Shown here in pieces: positions 1 to 41,379 of a stretch of 64,000 bases of DNA (position 1 is its first letter; the number at the start of each line of letters is the position of its first letter). A program made the position numbers and the translations under genes. Source of the stretch: Pantoea sp. A4 (GTDB lineage: Bacteria > Pseudomonadota > Gammaproteobacteria > Enterobacterales > Enterobacteriaceae); the NCBI RefSeq assembly GCF_000295955.2, contig NZ_ALXE01000025.1:1-64000 (forward strand). The letters run 5' to 3'. A model generated the notes under the pieces. The model saw only the letters and a list, made by a program, of their open reading frames with translations, did no database searches and was not told the origin of the DNA.

Positions 1-1172
1 ACACCGGCATTGCCACCTACGTCTGGATTATCTCCAACAAGAAAGCGCCTGAGCGTAAAGGCAAAGTACAACTGATTGATGGCACCAACCTGTGCGGAAA
101 AATGCGTAAATCTCTGGGTTCCAAGCGTAATCTGATGGGCGAAGACGACATCAAACTGATCACCCAGACCTTTGGTGAGTTTGAGGTGGTGGATGCCACA
201 ACTCTGGAAGAGTTGGGTCTGGAAAAAGCCGCCGAGCAAAAGTCTAACCGTGGCCGCCAGCCTGCTACCGCCAAAACCGAAGCGCCGAAAACCTTCGCCA
301 GCAAAATCTTTAACAGCACCGACTTTGGCTATCGCCGCCTAACCATTGAGCGTCCGCTGCGTTTATCTGCTCAGGTGACGGATGAGGCGATTGCGACTCT
401 GCGCTTCGCGCCGAAGCCGTTCAACGCGCCAATGGAACGTCTGTATGAAGAGTTTGCAGCCCAATGGCAAGTGGATAACTTTGGTGATTTTTCCGAACTG
501 GAAGCAGAAGCACGCGCCATCATTAAAGCCGAATTTGCTGAATTAAAAGAGAAACAAATTAAAGATCTGCTCGATAGCAAACTGTGGCTGGCGCAGCGCG
601 CCTTAATGGAAAAAGCACAGCAGATTCAAACTGCGTTGGGTACGCAGGCAGGTGGCAAAACGCAGGTGAGCAATGACTTTAACCAGTTCCAGTTGACCCT
701 GAAAGGGGCCATCAAAACCGCTGAGGTGAAGCTGGATGCAAAAGAGAATAAGCAGTTTATCGATGCCATCACCACGAAAAACCCGGATGCCGAGCCGGTG
801 GTGAAGAAGGTGTTGAAAGAAGCCGCCCAGCCGCTGTACGGAGCATTTGAGTATAAAGGCAAGGTTGTTGAGTTTGAACAGGACGGCGAGCTGCGTGATA
901 ACGAAAACGTGCCGCTGAATCCGGCAGAGTCCACCAGCGACCTGATTGAAAACTACTTTAAAGCGGAAGTGCTGCCGCATGTGAATGACGCGTGGATCAA
1001 CGCCGATAAGCGCGATGCGAAAGATAATGAGGTGGGGATTGTCGGCTACGAGATTCCGTTTAACCGTCATTTCTATATCTATCAGCCCCCGCGCCCGTTG
1101 GAAGAAATTGATGCCGATCTGGATGCGGTCAGCGCCGAGATTATGAAGCTGCTGCAGGAGGTACATTCCTGA
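1..1172 (+). CDS. hsdM: Type I restriction-modification DNA methyltransferase subunit HsdM (3' part)
   Basis: The gene enters from the left edge, in frame from base 3; about 389 codons are visible. The first visible residues (YVWIISNKKAPERKGKVQLI) match the conserved segment after the catalytic core of type I N6-adenine methyltransferases. The SAM-binding motif and NPPF active site must lie upstream and cannot be checked. HsdM pairs with HsdS to form the modification enzyme and joins HsdR in the restriction complex. The C-terminal half is rich in charged helices, as expected for the region contacting HsdS. The TGA stop overlaps the hsdS start by one base (TGATG), which indicates translational coupling. 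An internal ATG at 102 is not a start, because coding continues upstream. Confidence 0.93.
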   Translation, partial: TGIATYVWIISNKKAPERKGKVQLIDGTNLCGKMRKSLGSKRNLMGEDDIKLITQTFGEFEVVDATTLEELGLEKAAEQKSNRGRQPATAKTEAPKTFASKIFNSTDFGYRRLTIERPLRLSAQVTDEAIATLRFAPKPFNAPMERLYEEFAAQWQVDNFGDFSELEAEARAIIKAEFAELKEKQIKDLLDSKLWLAQRALMEKAQQIQTALGTQAGGKTQVSNDFNQFQLTLKGAIKTAEVKLDAKENKQFIDAITTKNPDAEPVVKKVLKEAAQPLYGAFEYKGKVVEFEQDGELRDNENVPLNPAESTSDLIENYFKAEVLPHVNDAWINADKRDAKDNEVGIVGYEIPFNRHFYIYQPPRPLEEIDADLDAVSAEIMKLLQEVHS

Positions 1173-2520
1173 TGGCTAAGTATAAGGCGTATCCGGAGTA
1201 TAAAGAATCTGGAGTTGAGTGGTTGGATAAACTTCCACTAAATTGGTCCACAGAAAAAACAAAAAGAATGTTTTCTTTAAAAAGAAACTTGGTTGGACAT
1301 CTATCTAGTTCTTTTCAACTTCTTTCATTAACTCTAAATGGGGTAGTCCCTCGCGATATATCTTCTGGAGAAGGGAAAATTCCTGCAAGTTTTGATACAT
1401 ACCAGTCAGTACAAGCCGGTGATTTGATATTTTGTTTATTTGATATTGATGAAACACCCAGGACTATCGGTCTTGCAGAACAGGATGGGATGATCACTGG
1501 TGCTTATAATGTGTATAGTTGCATGGATAAATGTTTACCAAACTATGCATATTATTATTTTTTACACATCGATTCATTTAAGGGGTTAAAGCCTTTTTAT
1601 ACTGGATTGAGAAAAGTTGTGAGAGCAGAAACATTCGGGTGTATTGAAATGCCGAATCCTTCACTTTCAGAACAAGAAAAGATTTGTATATTCCTCGATC
1701 ACGAAACCGCAAAAATCGATAACCTTATCGAGAAACAGAGTCAACTGATTGATATACTTAAAGAAAAACGACAGGCAGTGATTAGCTATGCCGTTACCAA
1801 AGGACTAAACCCTGATGTGCCGATGAAAGATTCTGGTGTTGAGTGGTTAGGGGAAGTGCCGGATCATTGGAACAAAATAAAGCTTAAACATATTACCATT
1901 CAAATAATTGATGCCGAACATAAAACCGCAGAATATTTTGATGATGGTGAATATTTAGTTTGTCGCACAACAAATGTAAAAAATGGGAAGCTTCATTTAG
2001 ATGGAGGTCTATATACAAACGCGGATACATATAAAAAATGGATAAAGAGAGGTAAGCCAGAAGCTGGGGATATTTTATTTACAAGGGAGGCTCCAGCTGG
2101 GGAAGCATGCGTTTACTCGGGCGAGATACCACTTTGCCTAGGGCAAAGGATGGTGTTGTTTAAGTTGGATCTAGCTCGTGTTATTCCTGAGTTTATTTTA
2201 TACTCTATTTACTCAGGTTTGTCTGATGACTTTGTAAAACAGTTATCACAAGGTAGTACTGTTTCACATTTTAATATGTCTGATATTCAGAATATACCTC
2301 TTTATGAGCCGCCATTCAGTGAACAGAAAGAGATAGAAAAATATCTAAAATATCATTTATCTAAACACGATGTTTTAATTTCATCTGTGCAAGATATGAT
2401 TTTCCTGATGCAAGAACGCCGTACCGCCCTTATCTCAGCCGCCGTCACCGGAAAAATCGACATCCGCGACTGGGTTGCCCCTGACAAGCAGGACATTCAG
2501 GAGCTACAGGAGGCCAACGC

Positions 2521-2524
<4 letters not shown>
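1172..2524 (+). CDS. hsdS: Type I restriction-modification specificity subunit HsdS
   Basis: This 450-residue protein shows the duplicated HsdS architecture. Each half opens with a similar motif (ESGVEWLDKLPLNW near residue 12; DSGVEWLGEVPDHW near residue 219), followed by a variable target recognition domain and a conserved helical spacer (LSEQEKICIFLDHETAKID; FSEQKEIEKYL). It determines the bipartite DNA sequence recognised by the M2S and R2M2S complexes. Both recognition domains are clearly more AT-rich than hsdM, hsdR and the spacers, a usual sign of domain exchange. The gene overlaps hsdR by four bases (ATGA). The recognition sequence cannot be predicted from the sequence alone. Confidence 0.95.
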
Positions 2525-5769
<3,245 letters not shown>

Positions 5770-6111
5770 TTGGTGTACTGATTTGGAGCAACAAGGCAGG
5801 TAATCACCGAGAACAGATGATGTGCCTGCTTTGTTCCTTCTCACTTGTTGAGTTAGTTGGGCTCATTAGTCGAGCTTAGCCAACATGAACGCCTTCATCC
5901 TGTTGCGAATTCTATTCTGGCCATCGAGGGATGAGAGGTTATGGGAGCCGATAGCAGATAATCCATTCGCTAATGAAAAAGAGGCGTAGCAAGCAACATT
6001 TCAGGACTGGGAGCAGCGACAAGAATCATGCTGGTTGAACCAAAAATCCGGAAGAGAAAAACTTAGGGGACAAAAAGGGGACACTTTTGCGACACTCCGT
6101 ACATCACCAAC
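5770..6111. other. Non-coding stretch between hsdR and ileX terminator
   Basis: No convincing coding frame is visible here. The last part carries a repetitive purine-rich stretch (GGGGACAAAAAGGGGACA at 6066-6083). In my recollection, similar sequence is common downstream of tRNA-associated integrase genes, but no integrase frame is present. It may be residue from the event that placed the hsd operon next to the tRNA. Confidence 0.4.
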
Positions 6112-6138
6112 AAAAAAGCCACCCATTAAGGTGGCTTT
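6112..6138 (-). terminator. Intrinsic terminator of ileX
   Basis: Read on the minus strand, a 9-bp perfect stem (AAAGCCACC/GGTGGCTTT) with a 6-base loop is followed by a run of six T. It lies about 27 bases past the tRNA 3' end and should end the tRNA transcript. Confidence 0.75.
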
Positions 6139-6164
6139 AATCTGCTGATTTCACAGCTAAATTT

Positions 6165-6240
6165 TGGTGGCCCCTGCTGGGCTTGAACCAGCGACCAAGC
6201 GATTATGAGTCGCCTGCTCTAACCACTGAGCTAAGGGGCC
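6165..6240 (-). tRNA. ileX: tRNA-Ile(CAU), minor isoacceptor
   Basis: The 76-base cloverleaf folds fully. The acceptor stem GGCCCCU pairs with AGGGGCC, the discriminator is A, and CCA is encoded. The anticodon stem is GGCGA/UCGCU with loop CUCAUAA, so the anticodon is CAU. The TψC stem is GCUGG/CCAGC. The sequence is nearly that of E. coli ileX, which also lies beside mug. The CAU anticodon should be converted to lysidine-AU by TilS to read AUA codons, which separates it from methionine tRNAs. The 3' end faces the hsd operon, consistent with use as an integration site. Confidence 0.93.
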
Positions 6241-6252
6241 AGCGGTGCGGGG

Positions 6253-6258
6253 ATTATA
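6253..6258 (-). promoter_or_regulatory. -10 element of the ileX promoter
   Basis: On the minus strand a consensus TATAAT lies about 12 bases before the tRNA 5' end. It is followed by a GC-rich discriminator (CCCCGC), typical of stringently controlled stable-RNA promoters. No good -35 hexamer was seen at the usual spacing. Confidence 0.6.
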
Positions 6259-6398
6259 AGGTATCTCTACCGGGTGATCCAGCCTTCGCCAGTTGATTGG
6301 TGAAAATAAGAACAATTCGTGAGTTATTGATCTCAAAACAAAAATCCCTTTCTGTTATTGATGATTGCCCAATCACTACGCAGTCATTGCTGGTTTTT

Positions 6399-6427
6399 GA
6401 GACAAGGCTGGTTTGCTGCCTTGTCTC
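6399..6427. repeat. 10-bp perfect inverted repeat downstream of the SDR gene
   Basis: GAGACAAGGC and GCCTTGTCTC flank a 9-base loop just beyond the SDR stop codon. On the SDR transcript the stem is followed by A residues rather than U, so it is not a classic intrinsic terminator. It could protect the 3' end or act with Rho. Confidence 0.45.
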
Positions 6428-6442
6428 CGCAGCGCTCAGGCT

Positions 6443-7225
6443 CTACAGATAGCGTGAAGCGGGCTTATTCAGGGAGATAAACGGCAGCAGCGCGCCACGG
6501 GCTTCATCCAGCTTCTGCCACAGCCCCATATCTTCCACGGAGGGGAGGGTAATCAGCTCGCCATTGTCCAGGCCGCGCAGTGCCGCAGCCACCAAATCAT
6601 CCACTTCCATCATCTTCTCTGCGGGGATATCGCTCATCGATTTTCCAGCACGATCAAAGATTTCGGTGCGGGTAAAGCCGGGTAGCACGGCCTGTAGGAC
6701 TACGCCGCTGCCTGACAGCTCACGATCCATATTGCGCGTCAGCGACAGCACATAGGCTTTACTGGCGTTATAGGCACCATTCATTGCCTCGTGTACCAGT
6801 GCGACCACAGAGGCGATGTTCACGATGGTGCCCCGTCCACGTGCGCGGAAGGCCTGCGCGGCGCTGTGGGCCAGTTCGGTTAGTGCAATGATGTTCAGCG
6901 ATAGCATGGTTTGCAGCGGCTGAATGTCGGCATCAGTAAACTCACCTTCTACCACCATGCCGGCATTGTTTACCAGCAGGGTGATGTCGTGGTTATCACG
7001 CAGTTCACGGGCCACTTTTGCCAGGTCATCCGCTTGAGTGAGATCCGCTGTCAGCACGCTGACGTCTACGCCGTGTGCCTCCCGCAGAGAGTGTGCCAGC
7101 TGGTTGAGGCGTGCTGCATCGCGCGCCACCAGAATCAGATTGCTGCCGCGCGCGGCCAGTTGTTTTGCGTAAGTAGCCCCAATACCGCTGGAGGCTCCGG
7201 TGATCAACGCCAGTTGTTGTGTCAT
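6443..7225 (-). CDS. SDR-family NAD(P)-dependent oxidoreductase
   Basis: This is a classical short-chain dehydrogenase of 260 residues. It has the cofactor motif TGASSGIG (residues 9-16), NNAG (86-89), and a catalytic set of N111, S139, Y152 and K156 (YNASK). The start at 7225 was chosen because the conserved N-terminal strand begins there and an AGGA ribosome site lies 8 bases upstream. A longer reading frame to 7435 would run through the operator region and into the TetR gene. The gene is divergent from a TetR regulator and three matching palindromes lie between them, so it is probably repressed by that regulator. The substrate is unknown. Confidence 0.88.
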   Translation of the reverse strand: MTQQLALITGASSGIGATYAKQLAARGSNLILVARDAARLNQLAHSLREAHGVDVSVLTADLTQADDLAKVARELRDNHDITLLVNNAGMVVEGEFTDADIQPLQTMLSLNIIALTELAHSAAQAFRARGRGTIVNIASVVALVHEAMNGAYNASKAYVLSLTRNMDRELSGSGVVLQAVLPGFTRTEIFDRAGKSMSDIPAEKMMEVDDLVAAALRGLDNGELITLPSVEDMGLWQKLDEARGALLPFISLNKPASRYL

Positions 7226-33136: not shown

Positions 33137-35080
<1,944 letters not shown>

Positions 35081-35114
35081 TTATTCGGTTAGTCTGAAAG
35101 CGTGTCCTTAAGAA

Positions 35115-35144
35115 AAATGCCTGAGATTTCTCGGGCATTTTTTT
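35115..35144 (+). terminator. Intrinsic terminator of parE
   Basis: A 12-bp stem AAATGCCTGAGA/TCTCGGGCATTT (one G-T pair) is followed by TTTT. It also marks the boundary to the AT-rich accessory segment. Confidence 0.85.
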
Positions 35145-35269
35145 GCTTTGGTATGGAAATAGTTAATAATACCAGTATAAAATCCATCCATAAATTTTAC
35201 TTTTTTTTCTATGGGTTTTATTTTTCAGCATCGTAAGGCTGGAAGGGCTAACTCCAATTTTGCCATATT

Positions 35270-35548
35270 TCAATCACCATCTGCGATTATAACTTCATCA
35301 TTTTCAATGGCATGATTGAAATATTCAATCAAGGAAAAAATTTCTTTGTCTTTAAAGGATTTTAGAGCATCTATTAGCATTTTTTGATGATCTGGATAAA
35401 TTCTTGTTTTGCCATACGGATCAATATATACACCAGTATTATTTTTTAAATATAAAAATGCAATCTCTATTTTCTTAATTGTTCTATCATTCAGAATAAA
35501 AGATGGCTTAGTTCCATCATTGTCTGACAGATATGATAAGTCCAACAT
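35270..35548 (-). CDS. Small acidic protein, probable orphan immunity protein
   Basis: This 92-residue protein is not a family I recognise. It is AT-rich and acidic, with no signal peptide or membrane segment, and ends in IENDEVIIADGD. A good AGGAG site lies 7 bases before the start. Directly upstream, two bases before its ATG, ends a remnant reading frame that looks like the C-terminus of a polymorphic toxin (35551-35628). It lies downstream of an rhs gene and its immunity candidate, a usual place for displaced toxin/immunity cassettes. The immunity role is inferred from context only. Confidence 0.6.
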   Translation of the reverse strand: MLDLSYLSDNDGTKPSFILNDRTIKKIEIAFLYLKNNTGVYIDPYGKTRIYPDHQKMLIDALKSFKDKEIFSLIEYFNHAIENDEVIIADGD

Positions 35549-35550
35549 AA

Positions 35551-35628
35551 TTAATCTCCTAGAGCTACCGGGTAAGATGTAATGACATTTTCTTTTGCTT
35601 GATTAATTGGCCCATGCTGCGTAACACC
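35551..35628 (-). pseudogene. Remnant of a toxin C-terminus
   Basis: After an in-frame stop, 25 codons (GVTQH, then GPINQAKENVITSYPVAL, then GD) run to a TAA two bases before the 92-residue gene. The composition and the tight spacing to the next start resemble the tail of a displaced Rhs toxin. No start codon or upstream coding frame remains. Confidence 0.4.
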
Positions 35629-35687
35629 TTAAGGCCTTGGTGATCTTTCTCAAAAGTTGCCATTGGGGTGTTACGTCATCTTTCTCA
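35620..35687. repeat. Short inverted and direct repeats in the toxin-remnant region
   Basis: A 9-bp inverted repeat (CGTAACACC at 35620-35628, GGTGTTACG at 35667-35675) overlaps a 10-bp direct repeat (ATCTTTCTCA at 35643-35652 and 35678-35687). They may be scars of recombination at an old cassette junction. No insertion sequence was recognised. Confidence 0.35.
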
Positions 35688-35800
35688 GTAGGCCACTTGT
35701 TTAGGCATACCACTTTACTAGTGGTGAATTTATAAAATCATCGACTATGGAAATAACATTATGATAATAAACTTTTATTAATTCAATTGTATAGTGTCTT

Positions 35801-36283
35801 CTATGCAAGTATTAAACCCTTAAGGTCTGCTGAGAAATTTTCAGGCCAAATCGTGCTGTCATCATAAAGTGCCTTGTCAAAATAAGCGCTGTCAAAACGT
35901 TGTGCACCAGAAAAATTAGTGCCTCTTAAATCAGCACCATTGAATTCGGTATTAAATAAGTCTGCATGAGAAAAATTAGCCATCCTCATGTCAGTTTTAA
36001 AGAAACATGCCCCTGATAATTTTGAATAAGAAAAATCAGAGCTTATCAATACCGAATATGCTAAGTTGGCATTCATCAATAAAGCTCCCTCAAAAACTGC
36101 TCCTTCTAGATAGCACCTGGATAATTCAGCACTTCGTAGGTTTGATTTAATAAAGCTGGATTTATATAAGGAAAATCCACTTAATATTGCTGTATGCAAT
36201 TGAGTGTTATCAAAGTTAACCATGTCAAAACCATTAAAGTCGAATTCTTTTTCTTCGCCTGTTTTAAATTTTATAGAGATCAT
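35801..36283 (-). CDS. Pentapeptide-repeat protein, candidate Rhs immunity protein
   Basis: This 160-residue protein consists mostly of tandem pentapeptide repeats (for example SNLRS AELSR CYLEG AVFEG, and later ANFSH ADLFN TEFNG ADLRG) over about residues 25-135. These should form a right-handed quadrilateral beta-helix. It has no signal peptide. The ATG at 36283 overlaps the rhs stop codon (TAATG) and has a GGGGA site 9 bases upstream, so it is translationally coupled to the toxin gene. That position is typical of immunity genes. An alternative start five codons earlier lies inside rhs. The DNA is AT-rich like the rhs tail. Confidence 0.8.
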   Translation of the reverse strand: MISIKFKTGEEKEFDFNGFDMVNFDNTQLHTAILSGFSLYKSSFIKSNLRSAELSRCYLEGAVFEGALLMNANLAYSVLISSDFSYSKLSGACFFKTDMRMANFSHADLFNTEFNGADLRGTNFSGAQRFDSAYFDKALYDDSTIWPENFSADLKGLILA

Positions 36284-39200
36284 TAGTAATTTCCCCAATC
36301 GAACTCATCTACTGTAGTTTCTGACATCGGTTTAATATGTTGTGCTTGGCTTGGTGACAAATTCCCTGGAACCGTTTCTGGCATTTTTCCAGCCACTTTA
36401 CCTGCAACATATCGATGATTACCTTCGACAACGATATTACCATCAACTTTTATAGGAGGTGCTACATCACCTTTAAGTAATCGATCTACATAACGTTGAA
36501 TAGCAGGAAGAGAAACACTGGCTTGTAGTGTTTGCATAGTGTCACCTTTCAATGATTCACGAACTATATCAGGTGTTACATCTGCACCACTATTGACTTT
36601 GCACAACCCCAGCGGATCGATCCAGCTTAACGCATTCGGCGCATACTGATACGGATTGATCCCGCCCAGTAGCCCGATCGGATCCGGCTGGGTAAAGCGG
36701 CCCGTCAGCGGGCAGAAGTACCGATGAAGATTGTAGTGCAGTCCGGTTTCATGATCCACATACTGGCCCTGCAGCGCCAGATTTTGCTGTAGCCAGGGAC
36801 GGCGGTGGCGGCTGCCCATATCCTGTTCCAGCGCCATGCCGCCCCAGCCGCGCGGGATCCCCCACCAGGTCACGCGACCATTCGCATCGGTCAGCATTTC
36901 CGGGCGACCGTTGAGGGCGCAGTGATACCATTCCACGTCCTGTCGGCTGCCCTCACATACAATACGGGCCAGCGGCTCGTGGCTGTATTCGTGATACAGG
37001 TATTTCACCGCCGTGTCCGGCCAGAGGCTGCTGCGCTCCTCAGCCAGTCGCATGCCCTGCCAGACAAAGGTCACGGTTTCCGGCGGGATGGTTTCCCGCC
37101 CCGGCGGCGTGTGGCGATGCAGTATTTTGTGGCTGCGGCGGCCCAGCGCATCATAAAAGTAGTCGGCGTGGCTGAAGGTGCGGTCGCCGCTGAACTGCAC
37201 CTGGCTGAGCTGATGTTCTGCGTTGTAGAACAGCCGCTGGCGGATGCCGCCGGGCAGGGTGCGCTGCCACACCCGGCCAAAGCCGTCGAAACGCTGTGCC
37301 ACATTGCCCAGCCGGGTCAGCAGGTTGCGCCACACGCGCTGGTCGGCGCGTTCGCTCTGGTTGCCTGCCGCATCGTAGGCAAAACGTTCGTCCTCCTGCG
37401 CGCGGTAGTGCAGCAGGTCACCATCGGCACTGTAGCGGTAGCTGCGGTGCTGGGTAATACCGTCGATCTCCACCATTTCCGCGCTGAGGATATCGCCGGG
37501 ATGCCAGTCGCTGCTGCGCATGATGGCCGGACTGTCGCGCCGCACGGTATGCCCGTCCATGTGATAGCGGGTGCGCTGGGTCAGCTGGCCCATGCTGCGC
37601 GATACCTCACGATGCAGCTGATCGCGCTCAAAGGCGGCTGTCTCCAGCTTTCCACCGTCATGCTCCAGCAAGCGCGTCAGCAGGTGGCCGCTTCCGTAAC
37701 GCTGGAAATGCTCGCGGTCACCGTTTGGATGCTGCAACTGCGTCATATTGCCCAGCACGTCACGGTCGGCGCGCCATGCACCGTGCGGGCCGGACTCTTC
37801 CAGCCACTGCCCGGCGGCGTCATAGTTGAAGTACTGGGTCTCTTCCCATTCAGGTTCGTCGTGCTGCGGTAGCCCGGACTGCCGCACGCGCTGAATGCTG
37901 ACCGCGTTACCGCTGTAACCGTAACGGGTATGGTGATCGGCGCTGTCTCGCGTGGTCAGCCGACCGTCGGCGTCATAGCCAAACCGCAGCGTGAGCGACG
38001 TCATGGCAGGCGGAAGCGCGTCTTGCCAGCCCGCATACTGCGGTGGTGGCGGCTCAGGACAGACAGGGCGCGGGGCTAGCGGTTCCTGCGTCCAGGCCCA
38101 GGGATCGGGCGGTGGCTCGGCCCCGGCTTCAATGGCGGCGCTGGAGGGTAAATCCGTCACTTCAGTGACGCGCCCGCAGGCATCGTAGTGCAGCCGCTGG
38201 CCGATACCGGCGTAATCGGTCTGCCCGCTGAGGCGTCCGGCCGCGTCACGCTCCAGAGACCAGCTTTCCTCATTAGGATTAACCACGGCGCTGAGTTCGC
38301 CGTTGCTGTCGTAGCGCCAGCGGGTAATGCGCCCGGCCGGGCTGGTGTGAGACGTCACCTGGCCGCGTGCGTTGTGAGTCAGAGCGGTGACCAGCAGATA
38401 GGTCTCTTCGCCGCAGTAGCGACCGCAGCCGTCGTAGCGGTAATGCGTCTTGATATGCGAGGGTGTTTCAGCTACCTGCAACCGGCCGGCCGTGCTCCAC
38501 TGCCAGGAATGAATATTCCCGGCCTCATCGCAGGCGGCGATCAGCCTGCCGCGTGCGTCATAGCGCCACCAGGCGCTGTCACCCGAACAGTTGGTGCGCC
38601 GGGTCAGGCGGCCACAGCTGTCGTAGCGATATTCACGCAGGTTGCCTACCGCATCGGTCTCGGCTTTTACATCGCCGTAGTGGTTGACGGTAAAAGTGGT
38701 GGTGGCATCCCGCGCATCGGTCATGCTGATCATGTCGCCTTTGGCGTTGCGCTCACAGCGCCAGGTGCCACCGGCTTCATCTACTTCACTGACTGGCAGC
38801 GCCCACAGCGGATGCCAGCGGGTGCTGCGAGTGCGACCCAGCGGGCTGGTGATATCTTCCAGCCTGCCTTGCGTGTCGTAGCCATACTGCCAGCACGCGC
38901 CGTCTGGCATACGGGTGCTCAGCAGCAGTTCGTCGTGCGCGGCCCAGGTATAGTGCCAGGCGTGCTGCCACGGATCAACGTAGCGGGTGATGCGCTGGTG
39001 TTTATCCCACTCGTGACGGGTCGTGGCACCGCCCGCCTGCGTCACGGTGGCCCAGCGAGCCTGTTCATCCACGACGATGTACCAGCTTTCCAGCAGGCCA
39101 CTACTGCCGGGCAGTGCGCCGGGGCCGGTCAGGGTGGCATCATTCGCTGAATCAGTAACTGAAGGGGGCAGCGGGCAGGCAGCGGCTTCAGCACGCCAGG

Positions 39201-40962
39201 CAATCTCCTCGTCTTGCGGCGTATCGTCATACACGCGATAGCCGCATACCCGCCAGTTCGTACCGGGCTGCCAGTCATAGCTGACGCGCAGCCCGCCCGC
39301 ATAGCGGTGCGAGGACAGCAGGCCGTTGTGATGCCAGCCAAAGGCGCGGGTCACCACCAGGTCCGCATCGGTAACGCGCAGCAGCTGACCGGCCTCGTCG
39401 TAGTGGTACGCCACCAGCAGGTGCTCCGAGCCATCATCAACCACTACCTGATGCACTGTAGCCAGCCTGCCGCTCTCAGGGTGATAGCGCAGCCGGACTT
39501 TCATTGCCTCGTTATCGCCGGAGATGAATTCCAGCTGCCCGGCGCTGTTCCAGTCGAGGTACTGCACGTTGCCGTGCCGGTCGTGGATCTCCACTATGCG
39601 CCATTCGCCGACCCGCAGCGGGTCCGCCGCATAGCGCTGGCTTTCGCCCAGCTCGTTCTGCAACAGCAGCACGCCGTTGATGCTGCAGAACAGTGTCAGC
39701 CCGTCGACGGGGAACTGCACCACATCACCGGGCTCTACGGCACCCAGGCCGCATTCGCGTCCGCTCTGGTCGCGCCAGCGCAGGTACAGCGTGCCGTTTG
39801 CGTTTCTTTCGCCTAGCAGCCGGGTTTCCCAGGGTAGCATCCAGCCGCGCCCGAGCATGCCCTCGGCCGGGTTAAGGCTGTGGTAGATACGCTGCCAGCG
39901 CAGCGGGATTCGGTCATCAAGGATGAAGTCGAGCTCTTCTTCGGTGGCCAGCAGTTTGGCACCGGTGGCGAGGTTCACCGGGTGAGCTGTCTGCATGGCG
40001 CGGGCCGGAAGTTGCCCGAACCTGGCCGCAGTGCCCGCCGCATGGCCGCTGGCGTAGAGTGGACAGGGGATGTTTTTCAGCATGCGCGCGGTACGCACCC
40101 GGCGGTAGAGATGCTGCGCCAGCGCGGTGGCCCGTTGCAGCGCTTTGCCGCCCGACAGGGAGCCGATAAACCACGCCAGCGTGTTTTTGCCGCTGCGGAT
40201 GTCGCGCACCACCACCGGGTCGCCGCCGATACGCACCCGATGATCCTCCAGCACTTTAATCATGGCTTCACAGGTGCTGCGGTCGCCGTGGCGTGCCGCA
40301 GGCTGGCCGTTGATAAACACCTTGCTGGAACCTTCTGCCAGCCACAGCGGGCCGGGAGCCAGGTGCAGTTTGCTGCACAGGATCTGGTCTTGCCCGGCGG
40401 GGGTGCTATGGGGCGCGGCGCTGGCCACCAGCGGCTGGACCATTTCGCTGAGCAGGGATTCCAGCAGCGCGGCGCTGTCAATGTCGCTCAGGCCCTTGCC
40501 CATCGCCGCCAGCAGCGGCTGCGGGTTCATCACCACTGCGCTTATCGTGGCCGCGATGGCCAGCGCCTGCTGTAGCGCGCTGCCACTGTCTGCAACGGCG
40601 GGCTGGTTGATCCAGGCTGGGTCGACAGTGCCCGCCGCACGGGCGGCCGGTTTGCCGCCAATCATCACGTCGGGTGAGCCGCTGACGATCAGACCATCGG
40701 GCGTGGGCGTCAGTCCGAGCAGGTCGGCCACCGCCTCCCCGGCGGCATTGCCCCAGCGTTCAGGAAACCCGTCCACCGCTGCGCTGACCACCAGCGCCAC
40801 GCCAATCGCGGTGCCGACACCGCTGGCGGCCAGGGCGGTACCGCCAATAAAAGCGGCGGCGTAGAGTGCGCCTTCGGTGATGCCGCTGACGAAATCAGCC
40901 AGCACCGAAGGGTGCTCAAGCACATCACCAGCGCGCGCAGCTAGAGGGGCGTTACTGCTCAT
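36283..40962 (-). CDS. Rhs-family polymorphic toxin with PAAR-like N terminus and variable C-terminal domain
   Basis: This protein has 1559 residues. The N terminus has an AARAGD..H motif like that of PAAR proteins, a hydrophobic segment (about residues 30-65) and further PAAR-like strands (DVMIGGKPAARA, VFINGQPAARHGD). These suggest delivery by a type VI secretion system. YD repeats fill the middle (YDACGRV, YDAAGNQ). The core ends with the Rhs signature PDPIGLLGGINPYQYAPN and DPLGL near residue 1453. The final 106 residues are a separate toxin domain coded by AT-rich DNA, with KVDGNIVVEGNHRYVAGKVA as its most conserved-looking part. The start at 40962 has a GGAG site 6 bases upstream. No vgrG or EagR-type chaperone gene is adjacent. 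Confidence 0.92.
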   Translation of the reverse strand: MSSNAPLAARAGDVLEHPSVLADFVSGITEGALYAAAFIGGTALAASGVGTAIGVALVVSAAVDGFPERWGNAAGEAVADLLGLTPTPDGLIVSGSPDVMIGGKPAARAAGTVDPAWINQPAVADSGSALQQALAIAATISAVVMNPQPLLAAMGKGLSDIDSAALLESLLSEMVQPLVASAAPHSTPAGQDQILCSKLHLAPGPLWLAEGSSKVFINGQPAARHGDRSTCEAMIKVLEDHRVRIGGDPVVVRDIRSGKNTLAWFIGSLSGGKALQRATALAQHLYRRVRTARMLKNIPCPLYASGHAAGTAARFGQLPARAMQTAHPVNLATGAKLLATEEELDFILDDRIPLRWQRIYHSLNPAEGMLGRGWMLPWETRLLGERNANGTLYLRWRDQSGRECGLGAVEPGDVVQFPVDGLTLFCSINGVLLLQNELGESQRYAADPLRVGEWRIVEIHDRHGNVQYLDWNSAGQLEFISGDNEAMKVRLRYHPESGRLATVHQVVVDDGSEHLLVAYHYDEAGQLLRVTDADLVVTRAFGWHHNGLLSSHRYAGGLRVSYDWQPGTNWRVCGYRVYDDTPQDEEIAWRAEAAACPLPPSVTDSANDATLTGPGALPGSSGLLESWYIVVDEQARWATVTQAGGATTRHEWDKHQRITRYVDPWQHAWHYTWAAHDELLLSTRMPDGACWQYGYDTQGRLEDITSPLGRTRSTRWHPLWALPVSEVDEAGGTWRCERNAKGDMISMTDARDATTTFTVNHYGDVKAETDAVGNLREYRYDSCGRLTRRTNCSGDSAWWRYDARGRLIAACDEAGNIHSWQWSTAGRLQVAETPSHIKTHYRYDGCGRYCGEETYLLVTALTHNARGQVTSHTSPAGRITRWRYDSNGELSAVVNPNEESWSLERDAAGRLSGQTDYAGIGQRLHYDACGRVTEVTDLPSSAAIEAGAEPPPDPWAWTQEPLAPRPVCPEPPPPQYAGWQDALPPAMTSLTLRFGYDADGRLTTRDSADHHTRYGYSGNAVSIQRVRQSGLPQHDEPEWEETQYFNYDAAGQWLEESGPHGAWRADRDVLGNMTQLQHPNGDREHFQRYGSGHLLTRLLEHDGGKLETAAFERDQLHREVSRSMGQLTQRTRYHMDGHTVRRDSPAIMRSSDWHPGDILSAEMVEIDGITQHRSYRYSADGDLLHYRAQEDERFAYDAAGNQSERADQRVWRNLLTRLGNVAQRFDGFGRVWQRTLPGGIRQRLFYNAEHQLSQVQFSGDRTFSHADYFYDALGRRSHKILHRHTPPGRETIPPETVTFVWQGMRLAEERSSLWPDTAVKYLYHEYSHEPLARIVCEGSRQDVEWYHCALNGRPEMLTDANGRVTWWGIPRGWGGMALEQDMGSRHRRPWLQQNLALQGQYVDHETGLHYNLHRYFCPLTGRFTQPDPIGLLGGINPYQYAPNALSWIDPLGLCKVNSGADVTPDIVRESLKGDTMQTLQASVSLPAIQRYVDRLLKGDVAPPIKVDGNIVVEGNHRYVAGKVAGKMPETVPGNLSPSQAQHIKPMSETTVDEFDWGNY
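36286..36603 (-). other. Rhs C-terminal toxin domain, ParB/sulfiredoxin-like
   Basis: These codons encode the 106 residues after the DPLGL core boundary. Composition shifts abruptly from GC-rich core to AT-rich tail at the boundary, as in other Rhs proteins whose tips are exchanged. The segment PPIKVDGNIVVEGNHRY (residues 49-65 of the domain) resembles the basic motif of ParB/sulfiredoxin-fold proteins ([GC]xHR). A helical region precedes it (SLPAIQRYVDRLLKGD). The assignment is from motif reading only; the activity (nuclease, nucleotide transfer or other) is unknown. Confidence 0.5.
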
Positions 40963-41379
40963 AGCGGACTCCGCAGGATAATTTTCCCGGGGCAGGAATA
41001 TAAATCGGGCGCACAAAAAAAACGTGCTGCCTGAGCGTCAGGCAGCAAAAAGGAATATCAACGGGCATAGTTAATCCAGCGAGATTATTATGAACGTGAA
41101 AAAAGGTAATATTGATGAGGCGCTGAGTCTGGCAAAATAATAATGTTGTCGCCAGTGTTATTTTTCTGCCAGAAATGCATAGTGAAACAGCTAATTGCGT
41201 GAAGTCCTTGTGTGACAAGGGATTGATGGCAATAAGGCGTGAAATTAAAGATGGCGGGAATGGTCTGGGTTTTGTTTTTACTTCAATCGCTAATTAATAA
41301 GCTAACTTTCCGATGGAATAAATAAAAAGTTCACCTAAAAAATAATTATTTATTGCGGGAGGACACACAAATAATAGCT
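40963..41379. other. AT-rich non-coding stretch upstream of rhs
   Basis: No gene was found. Apart from the hairpin at 41014-41046, the sequence is AT-rich and may hold the rhs promoter. No chaperone gene or remnant is visible. Confidence 0.5.
41014..41046 (-). terminator. Terminator-like hairpin in the rhs leader
   Basis: On the rhs strand a perfect 9-bp stem (GCTGCCTGA/TCAGGCAGC) with a CGC loop is followed by ACG and a run of eight T, 52 bases before the rhs start. It could attenuate rhs or block read-through from upstream. Confidence 0.55.

Follow-up and report, generated by a model that had tools for sequence, protein, structure and literature searches.

As C-terminal tips of polymorphic carriers, Tox-ParB domains end Rhs and filamentous-haemagglutinin proteins, where they adopt a ParB fold and have an immunity gene next to them (PMC3482391). 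Here we describe a similar arrangement in a window of 64,000 nucleotides from Pantoea sp. A4 (contig NZ_ALXE01000025.1, positions 1 to 64,000 of the forward strand; by the window we mean this whole stretch): the variable tip of an Rhs protein and the pentapeptide-repeat gene that follows it. In the examined text of Zhang et al. 2012, the D-G-H-H-R motif of Tox-ParB is predicted to be part of a metal-binding active site, phosphotransfer or nuclease chemistry is argued for, nuclease activity of the ParB fold is treated as disputed, and the immunity partners given are Imm20, Imm27 and Imm-SuFu; the word "pentapeptide" is absent from that text, 300,000 of 357,715 characters (PMC3482391).

The window tip shares with Tox-ParB its place at the end of polymorphic carriers (an Rhs protein with a PAAR motif, five haemagglutinin-type carriers, and orphan modules) and a predicted ParB/Srx fold. 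It differs in its loop, which reads [DE]-G-N-H-R-Y, with N in place of H; in escaping recognition by ParB_N (PF02195); in a conserved C-terminal D-x-x-D-W; and in its partner, a pentapeptide-repeat protein at 26 of 26 loci. It is very probably a divergent cousin of Tox-ParB. The predicted fold is also that of sulfiredoxin, SerK and the ParB CTPases (for the roles of this fold, see PMC12704722), families from which the tip is set apart by the lack of a loop cysteine, by a length of only 104 residues that leaves no room for helix-turn-helix or dimerisation domains, and by its presumably secreted carrier.

Pentapeptide-repeat proteins are described as guards of gyrase and as proposed mimics of DNA, and a family bound to a toxin would offer a matched partner with which to test recognition by such solenoids. 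The present protein models as a square beta-helix, like AlbG, QnrB1 and MfpA; unlike these and McbG, it has a toxin domain as its partner, an N-terminal MITIxFxTGE segment and a stripe of residues H30, R50 and N71, and nothing found points to gyrase involvement. Pentapeptide proteins also occur in loci of the type VI secretion system (T6SS), among them TagAB/TagB, TvpB and TseG, which serve as accessory proteins or effectors encoded in vgrG islands (PMC3942780, PMC13373197, PMC12873547); those described here follow one type of tip instead, and do so in CdiA-like and Gram-positive carriers as well.

We conclude that the tip and the pentapeptide gene are very probably a toxin-immunity module, because the two genes are strictly paired, the pairing recurs within an array of different tips, the proteins diverge in step, both genes appear to be under purifying selection, and pentapeptide genes are kept beside broken toxins. 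Tox-ParB is already known; the pentapeptide type of immunity partner is seemingly new. An earlier reading of the letters alone (the original prediction) knew of no described pair of exactly this kind, and among open-licence papers, so far as their partial text goes, we likewise find no ParB-type or other polymorphic toxin tip paired with a pentapeptide immunity protein. We know of no earlier pentapeptide-repeat immunity protein for a secreted polymorphic protein toxin.

The Rhs tip and the adjoining pentapeptide-repeat gene

The rhs gene (36283..41016, minus strand) encodes 1577 residues in which the open reading frame (ORF) and Pfam matches give a PAAR motif, DUF6531, RHS repeats, a DPLGL boundary and a variable tip. 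The part that follows DPLGL comprises 106 residues and contains IKVDGNIVVEGNHRY; the tip (36286..36603, minus strand), with a predicted ParB/Srx fold and a GNHRY loop, is characterized by AlphaFold2, VIA-align, Foldseek and alignment with 17 other full-length members. The G+C content is 0.33-0.36 in 500-base windows that cover nothing but the tip and the downstream genes, compared with 0.62-0.68 in those of the rhs core. The pentapeptide ORF extends over 35801-36298 (minus strand) when read from an upstream TTG; since its relatives begin at or near the position of an ATG at 36283, we take that ATG as the start, which gives a candidate immunity protein of 160 residues (35801..36283, minus strand). 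The A of this ATG is the last base of the TAA stop of rhs, an overlap of one base.

The 160-residue protein matches Pfam Pentapeptide (PF00805) with E = 8.8e-28, and its AlphaFold2 model (predicted local distance difference test, pLDDT, 95.1) shows a beta-helix of almost even coils and, at the N-terminus, a small pair of strands. The Foldseek neighbours of this model are synthetic solenoids, HetL (E 2.5e-8), QnrB1, MfpA and AlbG; the protein's matches to the NCBIfam Qnr and MfpA models all fall far below the cut-offs. The original prediction, which had reported an AT-rich tip of 106 residues carrying IKVDGNIVVEGNHRY after DPLGL, a next gene starting inside the rhs stop codon and a pentapeptide-repeat beta-helix, is confirmed in all of these respects.

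Across distinct loci, a pentapeptide gene of this family (as judged by profiles made from 18 pairs) adjoins the tip or its remnant on the downstream side in 26 of 26, and is present in none of 35 control loci (one VipB, four DcrB and 30 ParB_N), so the pairing is not due to chance. The 26 loci were picked by their tips, and the count thus asks whether the pentapeptide gene follows the tip and not the reverse; duplicates were counted once (L001, L009, L011, L016-L021, L074, and L072/L073, which contain L012, L013 and L015). In the reverse direction, a search of plasmids with the window pentapeptide protein at E 1e-15 returned one of 72,556 records, the same record that holds the toxin. An array in a genome of the same family as the window (L072) carries six Rhs modules with different tips, and a pentapeptide gene stands after both of its ParB-like tips and after none of the four others. 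At another locus (L073) the main rhs has a different tip followed by a different gene, and the gene after the DGHHR tip of Pseudomonas aeruginosa is not a pentapeptide gene, by reading of its translation and by profile. Two of the modules in the six-module array are diverged copies of the ParB-like/pentapeptide pair.

At four loci (L029, L030, L031, L035) a full-length pentapeptide gene stands beside a toxin that contains stops or retains only its last 29-48 residues, and at a fifth (L002) the toxin is interrupted by a stop and the neighbouring pentapeptide ORF lacks only the usual start; both genes are damaged at L028 and L036. One locus (L026) weighs against a toxin-immunity module, since there the toxin ORF is full length and the adjoining pentapeptide gene is frameshifted. 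In that toxin, two otherwise conserved aspartates near the C-terminus are glycines; judging from the sequences, it is as if toxin and immunity were decaying together. That several loci hold remnants only would also suit a non-toxic tip, decayed or structural, with the pentapeptide gene as unrelated cargo; this is very improbable, given that the pairing holds strictly in different carriers and phyla, that selection on the two genes is purifying, and given the array controls. The toxin-immunity pairing proposed in the original prediction thus gains support from the 26 of 26 loci against 0 of 35 controls, the array, the co-divergence described below, and the intact pentapeptide genes beside broken toxins.

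For the evolutionary comparison we used the 18 full-length pairs among the 26 loci, leaving out L002, L026, L028-L031, L035 and L036, and keeping L006, whose tip lacks its first residues and has no in-frame carrier. Computation supports co-divergence of the two proteins: pairwise distances among the tips correlate with those among the pentapeptide proteins at r = 0.879, a value reached in none of 20,000 permutations, and in 153 of 153 comparisons the greater divergence lies with the pentapeptide protein. The ratio of nonsynonymous to synonymous substitution rates (dN/dS) is 0.08-0.19 for the tip (computable in five of seven pairs) and 0.13-0.30 for the pentapeptide gene (seven of seven), over pairs that share members; with ratios this low both genes look maintained, apparently under purifying selection. 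Two points tell against these measures: the co-divergence statistic ignores shared ancestry, and several dS values are saturated (>1), so that the ratios are rough.

The divergence also bears on what the pentapeptide protein would recognize. In one alternative the tip poisons gyrase or topoisomerase IV, and the pentapeptide protein shields this target instead of binding the toxin, much as McbG and AlbG are thought to protect host gyrase from microcin B17 and albicidin (PMC7897471); the grouping of the model with synthetic solenoids, HetL, QnrB1, MfpA and AlbG in Foldseek fits such a role. A protein that diverges more than its toxin, and in step with it, is instead what one expects of a protein tracking a changing partner. 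On this ground direct binding of the toxin is favoured above the guarding of a conserved target, gyrase for instance, but McbG and AlbG are precedents for such guarding (PMC7897471). Furthermore, the coils of the pentapeptide model are nearly even, and no long loop is seen, by reading and not by comparison of coordinates, that resembles the loops of QnrB1 and AlbG (PMC7897471); the ParB/Srx fold, for its part, suggests an enzyme. We regard target shielding as improbable.

A candidate contact site for the toxin can be named as a lead. Residues H30 and R50 of the pentapeptide protein are invariant, M70 is kept in 16 and N71 in 17 of 18 sequences, and the three positions (H30, R50, M70/N71) are spaced by 20 residues, or one coil each, which, reading exposure from the repeat, would align them in a stripe. 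Arginine is common at this position in pentapeptide repeats, and the stripe is for this reason a lead only. The original prediction also suggested that the pentapeptide protein, as a possible mimic of DNA or of a protein surface, could block a toxin acting on nucleic acid. Net charges run from -1 to -13 for the 18 pentapeptide proteins compared, all of them acidic, and from -4 to +4 for the nearly neutral tips, which gives no clear sign of simple charge complementarity.

Predicted fold and sequence affinity of the tip

The AlphaFold2 model of the tip (104 residues, 36286-36597, from 7 alignment rows) has a pLDDT of 88.1 and a predicted template modelling score (pTM) of 0.82, and the numbering G59-N60-H61-R62-Y63 refers to it. 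In the loop [DE]-G-N-H-R-Y the G, N, H, R and Y are kept in 18 of 18 members, and the C-terminal D-x-x-D-W is likewise conserved in the family. The catalytic cysteine of sulfiredoxin is accordingly absent, the loop being G-N-H-R-Y in all 18. By our by-eye alignment N60 presumably stands where the sulfiredoxin loop has its cysteine, and we take the G-x-H-R part of the loop to resemble that of sulfiredoxin.

Several comparisons point to the ParB/Srx fold. Arabidopsis sulfiredoxin is the top Foldseek match of the tip in the PDB, and VIA-align, which re-aligned only the 275 chains supplied by Foldseek, gives in the 15 rows shown sulfiredoxins, ParB, Spo0J, Noc, KorB or Atu1540 (the last of which we take to belong to this fold) with Z of 3.5-5.7. 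In a viral library Foldseek puts first a Serratia phage protein named ParB/Sulfiredoxin (E 0.038, probability 0.97), and each of the 11 proteins in the top 20 that carry a name is a ParB or sulfiredoxin protein. PHROG 1033 (ParB-like) matches 12 of 18 members, at best with E 0.0018 and with 0.017 for the window member. An array of orphan tips in P. aeruginosa includes a tip annotated as ParB/Srx that carries DGHHR (PF02195, E 3.7e-6): hhalign of the 18-row tip profile against it is colinear (E 0.0089, 61 columns, 28% identity), places GNHRY at the position equivalent to DGHHR, and gives a score of 21.0 that is matched by one of 500 shuffles and by none of 83 control ORFs.

Other results count against this assignment. 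The Foldseek values are weak, with a best E of 0.36 in the PDB, where unrelated enzymes appear from rank 3 onward, and of 0.038 in the viral library; the VIA-align Z-scores lie below 8, which the tool's own note calls middling, and are limited to Foldseek's 275 chains; and PHROG also gives weak matches to other families, one of them a tail protein matched by 7 of the 18 members. HHalign gives the match to the DGHHR tip a probability of 4.6%, and the best of the 83 control ORFs reaches 19.7 against its 21.0. Against 30 canonical ParB_N domains the tip profile is negative (score 5.7, with 5 of 30 column shuffles higher), single ParB_N sequences scoring up to 23.4; neither Pfam nor NCBIfam recognizes the tip, and none of the 18 members matches PF02195 at E 1. 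When the tip and the 18-row profile were each searched against the sequences of solved structures, only chance matches came back.

Taken together, the structure prediction and fold search place ParB/Srx-fold entries nearest, with weak Foldseek scores, and computation supports a ParB/Srx fold with high confidence. The ParB/Srx-like reading in the original prediction is in this sense upheld by AlphaFold2, VIA-align, the viral-library Foldseek search, PHROG 1033 and the hhalign match to the DGHHR tip, with the PDB Foldseek, PF02195 and ParB_N profile results weak or negative.

Distribution and carriers of the tip

Few genomes carry the tip. Among 84,980 species genomes scanned for exact peptide words, 57 candidate stretches emerged, six of them real loci (three Pseudomonas, two Achromobacter and one Cytobacillus), and one of 72,556 plasmid records, from P. 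aeruginosa, holds the tip. Whole-genome searches, whose counts include some remnants, found it in one of 60 relatives and in one of 398 genomes of the phylum, in both cases the Pantoea sp. A4 genome itself; in three of 343 genomes of the family, its own included; in 12 of 398 genomes of the genus of P. cichorii; in 7 of 268 of the family of A. pestifer; and in one of 299 of the phylum of Cytobacillus, the one already known. Two matches, one each from the phylum and the family search, were rejected as false: by reading, L010 (E 7.5e-4) lies inside a secretin-like ORF and L014 (E 9.1e-4) inside a CoaE-like ORF, and neither matches the tip profile. Two scans of viral contigs and a search of phage records gave no tip relatives, and Escherichia coli genomes searched with the DNA of 35200-36620 gave no match.

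The 17 other full-length members are 46-88% identical to the window tip and are borne by different carriers, which we surveyed with Pfam for the window, L012, L003, L005, L024, L025, L032 and one ORF of L008. Rhs proteins carry it in the window and at L012, beside orphan modules at L013 and L015; at L003, L005, L024, L025 and L032 it ends ORFs with haemagglutinin repeats, DUF637 or a VENN pretoxin domain, CdiA/haemagglutinin carriers that belong to Pseudomonas and Achromobacter. In Cytobacillus (L008) it stands in an array after ORFs that we read as YD-repeat proteins, the single scanned ORF of which has no Pfam match. Over 1-6713 of that locus, three tip modules follow the ends of repeat proteins, the middle one being the ParB-like/pentapeptide pair. 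Contamination of this contig by Pseudomonas was considered and rejected on its G+C content of 0.32-0.46 and its own array of repeat proteins.

Computation thus supports an exchangeable tip that appears, from sequence comparison, to move together with its immunity gene between Rhs, CdiA/filamentous-haemagglutinin and Gram-positive YD-repeat-like carriers, the pair forming one module. Annotators could accordingly give names to genes now labelled "hypothetical protein" and "pentapeptide repeat-containing protein", for example in the P. aeruginosa record.

Proposed mechanism, delivery and neighbouring features

The window Rhs protein is probably a T6SS effector, as it combines a PAAR motif and RHS repeats with a sheath gene in the genome. 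One gene for the T6SS sheath protein VipB and four genes of the DcrB/Eag family lie elsewhere in the Pantoea sp. A4 genome, which makes delivery of the Rhs protein by a T6SS possible, a step that we infer.

We hypothesize that the Rhs protein delivers its variable ParB/Srx-fold tip into the cytoplasm of a target cell, where the conserved GNHRY loop would bind a nucleotide or phosphate and catalyse phosphoryl transfer, and where the tip would most likely be toxic by cutting nucleic acid. The pentapeptide protein, whose translation is probably coupled through the overlapping start, would attach directly to the toxin domain and block it, with the H30/R50/M70-N71 stripe as the candidate contact. 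The role proposed for GNHRY is drawn by analogy with the DGHHR of Tox-ParB and the DGQQR of GmrSD, the latter linked to the binding of nucleoside triphosphates (NTPs); ATPase and DNase activities have been reported for one site of Osa (PMC4619093). On balance we favour the whole of this explanation: a T6SS Rhs effector with a ParB/Srx-fold enzyme as its tip, and a co-moving pentapeptide immunity protein that binds it.

A simple nuclease would usually be basic and the tips are not, which speaks against this choice of reaction. Their lack of basic character would suit a kinase or phosphotransferase of the SerK/Srx kind, dependent on NTPs and acting on a metabolite or protein, or else a hydrolase that depletes NTPs, with the pentapeptide protein again blocking it directly. 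In SerK, SbnI and Srx the fold is an ATP-binding module for enzyme activity (PMC12704722), and the sulfiredoxin-like loop noted above agrees with this. We consider such an enzyme somewhat unlikely; it differs from the favoured explanation in the reaction only, and our estimates for the two overlap and need not sum to certainty.

A tentative extension of the favoured explanation, possible although doubtful, is that a nucleotide-dependent ParB-fold toxin is countered by a solenoid shaped like DNA, which would either be gripped by the toxin as a decoy for nucleic acid or guard a DNA-topology machine that the toxin attacks. If true, this would be the first pentapeptide immunity of its kind known to us and would show the ParB switch fold in a novel role as a weapon. 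A small toxic version of the fold with a dedicated inhibitor could also show how the fold acts in killing.

At the locus itself, the rhs island (33185-41016) directly adjoins parE in convergent orientation. This parE shares 82.8% identity with its E. coli counterpart, which, together with the gene order, points to the Enterobacteriaceae. We doubt that the proximity of a topoisomerase IV gene is significant, as no parE was seen among the neighbours of L072 and L073, the only loci checked.

The P. aeruginosa array (L075, NZ_CP116719.1) spans 24 kb and consists of what seem to be orphan CdiA tip/immunity modules, with deaminase, EndoU, glutamine deamidase, nuclease and ParB/Srx types and a repeated element some 190 bp long (12 matches of at least 130 bases). 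Two tiny circular records, L002 (NZ_CP137521.1, 2.6 kb) and L076 (NZ_CP137494.1, 1.8 kb), each contain one module with a close copy of the repeat, and the smaller (1.8 kb) has an additional diverged copy. It looks as if single modules left as circles by recombination; an assembly artefact is the alternative.

Outside the pair, an AT-rich ORF of 92 residues (35270..35548, minus strand) is matched by no Pfam family above the cut-off and, at E 0.001, by no plasmid; judging by its position, it is perhaps an orphan immunity gene from an older or displaced tip.

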